From: Acetobacteraceae bacterium
Lineage (GTDB): Bacteria > Pseudomonadota > Alphaproteobacteria > Acetobacterales > Acetobacteraceae
Assembly (NCBI GenBank): GCA_025354865.1
Contig: JANXMB010000170.1
Location: forward strand, 1 to 64,000
Direction: 5' to 3'
DNA length: 64,000 nt
Positions 44,199 through 47,402 of this stretch are shown one piece after another; positions within the stretch are counted from its first letter, which is position 1; every line of letters starts with the position of its first letter. The position numbers and the translations under genes are program-made. A model generated the notes under the pieces. That model had not been told where the DNA came from and did no database searches. It saw only the letters and a list, made by a program, of their open reading frames with translations.

Positions 44199-45422
44199 CT
44201 ACCGCAGCCGCGACCCGGGATCCATCCCCAGCAACACCCGCCCGCCGATCGGATACCATTCCGGGGCGATCGTCACCGTCTGCCCGACCACCTGCAAATC
44301 CCGCCAGCATTCGGCCAACCGGCTGTCGCGCTCGAACGAGGTGCTGCCGCCGAGCCGGTACATCGCATTCATGACGTCCCGCGCACAATCGGCGGCAAAG
44401 GTGGTGGCCAGACGGCAGCGGGCTTTTTGTTGCAAGGTCACGTCTTCGCCTCGGGCAATTGTGTTCCAAAGTTCGGCAATCATGGCGGTGCGATGCGCGC
44501 GGCCGGCGCTCAACATCGCCTCCGCCCGGCCGACGGCTTCCTGCACCTGTGGATTGTCGCAGACCCGTGCGGCGCTCGCGCGTCCCCGGGGCACTTTTTC
44601 GACCGCGAGTGCGATCGCCGCCTCGATCCCCGCCCGCGCAATCCCGGTAATAACCGAACTATGATGCGGTCCGATCCAGCATTGGCTCGGCATTTGGAAC
44701 GTGGTGCCGGGCCATTTCGCCCATTGATTGTCGAGCGGAACGCCGGCATGGATCATGCAGCGTCGTTCCGGTAAAAACACGTTATCCACGGTCCAGTCGA
44801 AGCTGCCGGTGCCGCGCAGACCGGCGACGTCCCAGCTTCCCGGCACAGTAACGGTTTCGTCTTTGCGGAACACGCCGCGCCAGAAGGTGCCGCCATCGTC
44901 GCGCGTGCGCGGCACTCCGTCGTCGAGGATCTGGAAACTCCCCAGCATCCATTCGGCTTCGGGGCTGCCGCTGCCGAACCGCCAATGGCCGGAGACGCGA
45001 TAGCCGCCGGGCACCGACACGGCCGTGCCGCCACCCTGGACGGCGGTGCCGGCGCCGGTGGTGCCTTTGCCGCTGCCGTAGATCTCGGCGACGCCGTCGT
45101 CGGGCATGCCGAGCATGACGAGTTGCACGATGGTGTTGTTGGCAAGGTTCCAGCCGACGGAACCCATTCCTTCTGCCAGATTTTCGATGACACGGGTGAA
45201 GGTAATAGGATCGACCGCCAGCCCGCCGAGGGATTTGGGCACGACCATCCGATAGAACCCGGCTTCGCGCAGTTGCCCGACCAGCGCTTGCGGGAAGCAT
45301 TGTTCGGCCTCGATCCGGTCCTTGTGTCGGCGCAGTTCGGCTTGGATCGCCTTGGCGTCGCGCACGATCGTCAGGGCGTCGAAGTCGGTTGGCAGGCGCG
45401 TGTCGTCGGTTGTCGCGTCCAT
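44199..45422 (-). CDS. Acyl-CoA dehydrogenase / HpaB-like flavin-dependent hydroxylase family protein
   Basis: QALVGQLREAGFYRMVVPKSLGGLAVDPITFTRVIENLAEGMGSVGWNLANNTI...VSGHWRFGSGSPEAEWMLGSF. Confidence 0.85.
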   Translation of the reverse strand: MDATTDDTRLPTDFDALTIVRDAKAIQAELRRHKDRIEAEQCFPQALVGQLREAGFYRMVVPKSLGGLAVDPITFTRVIENLAEGMGSVGWNLANNTIVQLVMLGMPDDGVAEIYGSGKGTTGAGTAVQGGGTAVSVPGGYRVSGHWRFGSGSPEAEWMLGSFQILDDGVPRTRDDGGTFWRGVFRKDETVTVPGSWDVAGLRGTGSFDWTVDNVFLPERRCMIHAGVPLDNQWAKWPGTTFQMPSQCWIGPHHSSVITGIARAGIEAAIALAVEKVPRGRASAARVCDNPQVQEAVGRAEAMLSAGRAHRTAMIAELWNTIARGEDVTLQQKARCRLATTFAADCARDVMNAMYRLGGSTSFERDSRLAECWRDLQVVGQTVTIAPEWYPIGGRVLLGMDPGSRLR

Positions 45423-45599
45423 GTCGGCTCTCCCTTTGCGCCGATCCTGCGCCGGGCGGTGGGCGCTGTCACCTTTGGCTGGTAGCGAACGGTTGCATCT
45501 CGCAACCGCGCCCGCATCCCGCCTGCTCCGGCGGCGCGGAAACGATTGACGGCGGACCGGCGGTGTCTTACCAATCGCGCTCCAACCAAGGAATCACCC

Positions 45600-46364
45600 A
45601 TGAACCCCGCGCAAGAGCTAAAGGTTTTCTGGCAGCCGGGTTGAACGAGTTGTTTGAAACTCAAGGAGTTTCTCTCGGTCCGTGCGATCGAGTTCGATTC
45701 GGTCAACATCCTCGCTGACCCCGAAGGCCCACCCGAACTGCAACGCCTCGGCGCCCGATCGATTCCCGTGCTGTCGCGCGGCGACGACTGGACATTCGCG
45801 CAGAATCTCAGCCATGTGGTCAAGTTCCTCGGCCTGAATGAGAACGCTGGGCCGGTGCTTTCGCCCGACGCCCTGGTCGGTCGGATGGATTTGTTCCTCA
45901 GTGCTGCCATTCGCAACGTCCGGCTGATGCCGGATCGGGAGATGGAGAGTCAGGCCCCCGGCCGGCCGCGCAGTTTCCGCGTGCTCAGCCATCATATCTT
46001 CCGGATCGTGGAAACCTTCCTGGAAGTCGCCGATGGGGCAGAATTGACCCATGCGCTGATTTCCACCGGCCCGTCGGACGATATGGCGACCTTCGTGTCG
46101 ATCTCCCAATACGGGCAAACCGTGTTGGATCGACTGCGGGTTTACTGGGGCGGCAAGGCGGATAAGTCCGGTCGGGAAACGGTGCAGACCTATTACGGTC
46201 CGCAATCGTTGCACGAGCTGATGGAACGCACGACCTGGCATTCTGGCCAGCACGTCCGGCAGTGGTTCATGCTGCTGGGTATGCACGGCGTCGTTCCCGA
46301 TGCGCCGCCGACCGACGACGCCTTCGTCGGCCTGCCGATGCCGAGTTCCGTCTGGGACGGCTGA
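45600..46364 (+). CDS. Glutaredoxin-like/DinB-like fusion protein with in-frame TGA (candidate selenoprotein, U at position 15)
   Basis: AAGGA RBS, ATG 45600: MNPAQELKVFWQPG-[TGA 45642-45644]-TSCLKLKEFLSVRAIEFDSVNILADPEG...GARSIPVLSRGDDWTFAQNL (Trx-fold, cis-Pro) then DinB-like helices with HHIFRIVETF and WHSGQHVRQW; the ORF track only starts at TTG 45654. Confidence 0.7.
45647..45676 (+). other. Stem-loop immediately downstream of in-frame TGA (candidate bacterial SECIS)
   Basis: GAAACTC-AAG-GAGTTTC (45656-45672), plus lower GAG/CTC pairing (45647-49 with 45674-76); apical loop begins 18 nt after the TGA. Confidence 0.45.
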
Positions 46365-46421: not shown

Positions 46422-47402
46422 CTACCGAAAATACCGCTCCAGATTGCGCCGAATGCGGGTCAGAACCGGCTCGGTCGTGTCGGGATAATCGAAAATCTGG
46501 CCGGTGATCCGCTCGAACGCGGCGATATAGACCTGCGCGGTTTCCAGCACGATATCCGTGGGGATCTCGGGGATCGGGTCCTTGTACGGGTCGCATCGCG
46601 CGGCGACCCAGGCGCGCATCACGTCCTTGTCGAAACTGTCCGGCCGCATGCCGGCTTCGAAGCGTTCCCGATACGACTCCTGGAACCAATAGCGGCTGCT
46701 GTCCGGCGTGTGGATTTCGTCCGCCAGCACGATGCGCCCCGACGCATCGGTGCCGAACTCGTATTTCGTATCGACCAGGATCAACCCATTCTGCGCCGCG
46801 ATCGCCCGGCCGCGTTCGAACAAAGCGAAGGCGTGGTCGGTGACTTCTTTCCATTGCGCGGCTGGCAGCAGGCCGGAGGAGACGATGGCCTCGGGCGTCA
46901 GCGGCATGTCGTGCGCGCCGTCCATCGCTTTCGTGGTCGGGGTGATAATGGGATGCGGCAGTGCCTGGTTGTCGCGCATCCCGTCGGGCATGGTCGCGCC
47001 GTACATCGTTCTTTCGCCGTTCTTATACATCGTCAGGATGGACGTCCCGGTTGTCCCGGCCAGATAGCCGCGCACCACGATTTCCACCGGCAGGATGTTC
47101 AAATGCTGGCCGACGACGACGTTGGGGTCGGGGTATTCCAGCGCGTGGTTGGCGCAGATGTCCTGCGTCGCCTCGAACCAGAACCGAGCGGTCTGGGTCA
47201 GCACCTGGCCTTTGCAGGGGATGCAGGCCAGAGCGATGTCGAAGGCACTGAGGCGGTCGCTCGCGATCAGGATGCGGCGGCCGTCCGGCAGATCGTAATT
47301 GTCTCGCACCTTGCCGCGATAATGCTTCGGCAATTCGGCAATGGTCGCGTCGTCCAGGATCGATCCAACCCGAGCGCGGAGCGCGGCGGAGATGGGGCTC
47401 AT
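46422..47402 (-). CDS. purC: Phosphoribosylaminoimidazole-succinocarboxamide synthase
   Basis: [28 protein letters not shown]...[18 protein letters not shown]...[11 protein letters not shown]...[14 protein letters not shown]. Confidence 0.97.

Follow-up and report, generated by a model that had tools for sequence, protein, structure and literature searches.

Positions 45600-46364 (+ strand) of the window, the 64,000-nucleotide stretch of DNA analysed here, almost certainly encode a selenoprotein, Grx(U)-DinB, in which a glutaredoxin domain is fused to a DinB/YfiT domain and the UGA at codon 15 is read as selenocysteine (Sec). As judged from sequence, the gene shows every feature sought in a selenoprotein gene, and Sec would be incorporated at residue 15 in the cell. 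The window belongs to contig C119 of a 4.76 Mb draft genome (G000), whose named neighbours are Acetobacteraceae (Rhodopila, Acidisphaera).

Gene organization and domain structure

The frame opens at ATG 45600, 7 nt downstream of an AAGGA ribosome-binding site (45588-45592, + strand), and reads MNPAQELKVFWQPG-TGA-TSCLKLKEFLSV..., the sequence after the TGA also being given as TSCLKLKEFLSVRAIEF.... The only TGA inside it is at 45642-45644, and its stop codon is TGA 46362-46364, which confirms the open frame described in an earlier sequence-only reading of this DNA. With UGA as Sec the product would be a 254 aa chain, and it constitutes one conserved protein found in 26 genomes of a search among relatives and in 32 genomes of a class sample. 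The internal TGA occupies the first Cys position of the glutaredoxin CxxC, giving the redox motif UTSC (UxxC). A mechanical ORF caller begins at TTG 45654 and yields 236 aa; the shortening reported in the sequence-only reading was thus reproduced, and the active site of Grx(U)-DinB is lost under standard ORF finding. The gene stands alone between two genes on the opposite strand, which we named by eye from their translations: an acyl-CoA-dehydrogenase-like gene (44199-45422, - strand) and a purC-like gene (46422-47402, - strand).

If the start chosen by the ORF caller were the true one, the product would be a DinB protein with a truncated glutaredoxin remnant, and the upstream frame would be untranslated. 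This is highly unlikely. The protein sequence of residues 7-14 (LKVFWQPG), upstream of Sec, is conserved in both the TGA and the Cys forms, and W11 is invariant in 46 of 46 sequences. In the Cys forms no stop interrupts the site, and the ribosome-binding site precedes ATG 45600. Translation from ATG 45600 through the UGA is the preferred reading.

The glutaredoxin domain covers residues 7-78 (45618-45833, + strand), with Sec15, Cys18 and an invariant Pro56 at the cis-Pro place. It matches Pfam PF00462 at 2.7e-7 and 31.1 bits, over a gathering score of 22.9. The DinB/YfiT (S-transferase-like) four-helix domain spans residues ~89-242 (45864-46325, + strand) and contains three invariant histidines, His132, His214 and His218; the last two form the HxxxH that had been pointed out as WHSGQH. 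The DinB_2 score of this member alone is 21.6, just under the gathering score of 24.8; over the members, Pfam recognizes Glutaredoxin in 46/46 and DinB_2 in 33/46. An AlphaFold2 model built from 46 sequences (mean pLDDT 94, pTM 0.89) consists of a glutaredoxin domain and a DinB/YfiT four-helix domain. In Foldseek searches the N-terminal part, a thioredoxin fold, matched the dithiol glutaredoxin cGrx1 (7c10, TMt 0.86), which is also the best PDB sequence match, while the DinB part matched 2p1a and 6iz2 (TMt 0.76-0.81) and also YfiT (1rxq). Pfam and predicted structure therefore bear out the two-domain architecture with HxxxH proposed from the DNA alone. Residues invariant in the 46 sequences include W11, U/C15, S17, C18, P56, H132, Y198, R210, H214, Q217, H218, R220 and Q221. 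We also considered a whole-chain likeness to glutathione S-transferases and rejected it: the TM of ~0.3 reflects a resemblance of layout only and not homology.

Distribution of the TGA and Cys forms

In order to determine if the internal TGA is shared by homologues, we examined 59 related genomes. In 26 of them the gene is present, each time with a single in-frame TGA at codon 15 and no other stop, so that the scattered stops expected of a pseudogene in close relatives are absent. The single TGA-free fragment in this search starts downstream of the Sec site, and two genomes (G048 and G056) gave weak hits at ~30% identity to the glutaredoxin part only. The family was present in 32 of the 387 genomes of a class sample, 19 of which have the TGA and 13 only a stop-free form. 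One of the 19, G341, carries both; its Sec form and stop-free form lie at C24:4426-5181 and C25:5256-6005. A further class search, centred on G650, covered the same class again. In a phylum sample the family appeared only in its own genome and in one genome of the same class, and none was found on viral contigs.

The TGA had been placed at the first redox Cys in the sequence-only reading, and homologues indeed carry either a conserved TGA or a Cys codon there: TGA in 45, and TGC/TGT in 18, that is, in all the non-TGA homologues checked. The Cys forms have the motif C-[ST]-S-C and include sequences on plasmids of Caballeronia, Burkholderia, Variovorax, Rhizobium and Roseomonas. In a tree of 60 sequences the TGA and Cys labels are clustered and two Sec/Cys label changes are needed; there may be a single origin.

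A lone TGA in place of a Cys codon, one base away from TGC or TGT, is also what a pseudogene, a nonsense mutation or a base-call error would produce, as the earlier reading had cautioned. However, the search among relatives found the same TGA in 26 genomes, and the TGA form is spread over 9 families, in isolates and MAGs from different projects. No other stop interrupts the frame, and the protein is strongly conserved on both sides of the TGA. Since independent assemblies, including that of a named isolate, carry the TGA, a base-call error or a single nonsense mutation is excluded, and the probability of a defective Cys gene as a whole is close to nil. We therefore retain the reading of a conserved, functional UGA.

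A SECIS-like hairpin follows the UGA

The region downstream of the UGA, which aligns without gaps in the TGA forms, contains an apical hairpin, CUCGGUC-CGUGC-GAUCGAG (45674-45692, + strand), that starts 29 nt after the UGA and whose loop lies 36 nt after it. Pairing holds in 96.3% of cells over 27 distinct sequences, and 3 pairs are changed on both sides in a compensatory manner. The covariation score of 0.286 was exceeded by none of 500 shuffles (mean 0.188) and by no slid version of the hairpin. The loop is CGUGN, with an invariant G; what bacterial SECIS elements have in common is a guanosine within a small apical loop (PMC1088965).

The hairpin also leaves its mark on codon use. The four codons that span the loop, +11 to +14 (Ser, Val, Arg, Ala), are free of synonymous variation, a single codon being used for each wherever the amino acid is kept (TCG 41/41, GTC 32/32, CGT 42/42, GCG 24/24), whereas the flanking codons vary freely: at most codons beyond +14 the modal codon is used at a frequency near 0.5-0.7. 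In the Cys forms, by contrast, these third positions are not conserved in this way, and there is no SECIS hairpin. A covariance (SECIS) model gave 72-83 bits on the TGA forms, which include its training set, and at most 34.8 bits on the Cys forms. The post-UGA region does not fold with lower free energy than shuffles (z -0.74); as this z-score is uninformative, we relied on covariation and codon constraint. No Rfam family, SECIS included, matches the post-UGA region. Taken on these two lines of evidence, a SECIS-like hairpin is present after the UGA, where the sequence-only reading had suggested searching for one.

A proximal hairpin, GAAACUC-AAG-GAGUUUC (45656-45672, + strand), pairs in 80% of cells. 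It is disrupted in several more distant members, which makes its role uncertain. The post-UGA hairpin of FdhA in G021 has a different sequence, GCCAGUCUGGC.

Association with the selenocysteine machinery

All four components of the Sec machinery, which the earlier reading had proposed to look for, are present in the genome that carries the window. The genes for SelA (C145:211-1539) and tRNA-Sec (C145:85-176) lie side by side, selB is at C30:3360-5195 and selD at C179:13689-14561. Since selD has no internal stop, it is not itself a Sec form. In the class sample, selA scored over the cut-off in 18/19 TGA-form genomes versus 3/13 genomes with Cys forms only (Fisher P = 4e-5). The exception, G045, has a TGA form, but neither selA nor SelB was detected in it, nor a strong tRNA-Sec match; this genome is 77% complete. 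Three genomes of the same genus (G005, G007 and G024) have no selA, SelB or strong tRNA-Sec match, and no Grx-DinB gene either.

These data bear on the possibility that the UGA is recoded otherwise, by near-cognate readthrough, a UGA-reading tRNA or stop-codon reassignment, with insertion of Cys or Trp. Readthrough would likewise leave the frame open, and homologues have Cys as the equivalent residue. Yet the gene itself uses UGA as its ordinary stop, and only the TGA form has the hairpin and is associated with selA. Such recoding is very improbable, and decoding of codon 15 as Sec is the reading that we favour.

Two types of SelB occur in G021, G032, G010, G015 and G006, the second sharing ~40% identity with G000 SelB; in G021 one SelB type adjoins a Sec formate dehydrogenase. 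A third type (about 32-34%) was seen in G018 and G030. A second SelB dedicated to Grx-DinB was rejected, because the protein, followed by the same hairpin after its UGA, is found in genomes with a single SelB of either type, G000 with type A only and G009 with type B only.

Comparison with known families

Sec glutaredoxins (Grx, PF00462, UxxC) are known and have been described as small oxidoreductases (PMC13188914). Grx-DinB shares with them the glutaredoxin fold and Sec at the first CxxC position but has a DinB domain fused C-terminally. Weak profile matches were obtained to other glutaredoxin-like selenoproteins, the UXX-star models (NF041212, NF041211, NF047338, NF041114) and the HUGP/GUXX-star fusion (NF045501). 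These models contain no DinB domain, and Grx-DinB falls far short of the UXX-star thresholds, scoring 25 bits where NF041212 requires 66, and 21 bits where the cut-offs are 100 and 97.

With the DinB/YfiT S-transferase-like superfamily of bacillithiol, mycothiol and glutathione transferases, Grx-DinB shares the four-helix domain and the three conserved histidines, including HxxxH, which in DinB thiol transferases serve to bind a metal (PMC5815605, PMC10950700). The metal-binding residues H67, H160 and H164 of BstA correspond by order and HxxxH spacing to H132, H214 and H218, invariant in 46 sequences, which fit a predicted role as metal ligands. Known members of the superfamily use a low-molecular-weight thiol cofactor, whereas Grx-DinB carries its own redox selenol domain, and in the literature examined we found no member that is a selenoprotein.

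The Cys forms are full-length homologues with the same two domains, annotated as 'glutaredoxin domain-containing protein' or 'DinB family protein' (e.g. WP_162571355.1 of Variovorax and WP_207446294.1 of Roseomonas). They differ in having C[ST]SC instead of UTSC, in lacking the SECIS hairpin and in occurring mostly in selA-free genomes.

No DinB protein is listed among the 119 prokaryotic selenoprotein families inventoried in 2026 (PMC13188914), which do include Grx and UXX-star, and DinB goes unmentioned in PMC2398784, PMC9312934, PMC12013277, PMC1088965 and PMC1794560. A text search of the literature for selenocysteine or selenoprotein together with DinB returned nothing relevant, and no NCBIfam model covers the full protein. 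The suggestion that the architecture is undescribed thus stands for the 119-family table, NCBIfam and the papers searched: within these, Sec-glutaredoxins are known and the DinB fusion is not, although Sec-Grx or 'Grx-like' sequences from the ocean might include it under another name.

Possible function and significance

Following the sequence features above, UGA codon 15 would be decoded as Sec by the host SelA, SelB, tRNA-Sec and SelD under the direction of the hairpin at 45674-45692. The product would be one chain, with an N-terminal glutaredoxin/NrdH-like domain (U-T-S-C) and a C-terminal DinB/YfiT domain bearing a three-His metal site. Glutathione is the low-molecular-weight thiol of this bacterial group. 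We propose that the DinB domain may bind a divalent metal and glutathione and activate the thiol toward a substrate that is electrophilic or oxidised; the glutaredoxin selenol would attack the resulting mixed disulfide or the substrate, and Cys18 would resolve. Overall, the protein would serve detoxification or redox repair as a GSH-linked reductase or transferase. Its assignment as a selenol/thiol-dependent, metal-assisted glutathione oxidoreductase or transferase is tentative, with metal use, glutathione use and substrate all putative. No conserved gene-neighbourhood partner was found in the loci compared. The Cys forms adjoin diverse transport and catabolic genes, which fits detoxification without proving it.

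In an early survey, Alphaproteobacteria had one selenoprotein family, formate dehydrogenase being the sole selenoprotein of their Sec-decoding members (PMC1794560). In five genomes (G000, G009, the closed G100, G129 and G230), no formate dehydrogenase scored above the TIGR01553 cut-off, and the molybdopterin oxidoreductase matches listed for them contained no in-frame TGA. All five have selA, with selB and tRNA-Sec where scanned. Since no Sec-type formate dehydrogenase was found in these genomes, Grx-DinB may be a main Sec client there. Conversely, G012 has selA, SelB and tRNA-Sec but neither a Sec formate dehydrogenase nor Grx-DinB was found, and therefore other selenoproteins probably exist. 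A further proposal is that Grx-DinB is an undescribed family whose selenol glutaredoxin and metal-dependent DinB thiol-transferase domains form a single functional enzyme, and that it is a main reason for retention of the Sec machinery where no Sec-type formate dehydrogenase was found, as in G000, G009 and the closed G100; we regard this combined proposal as possible but somewhat doubtful.

With Grx-DinB the bacterial selenoproteome gains a well-supported family, found in Alphaproteobacteria, which links selenium to the DinB thiol-transferase superfamily. The family also provides natural Sec/Cys pairs, even inside one genome (G341), for asking what Sec buys.
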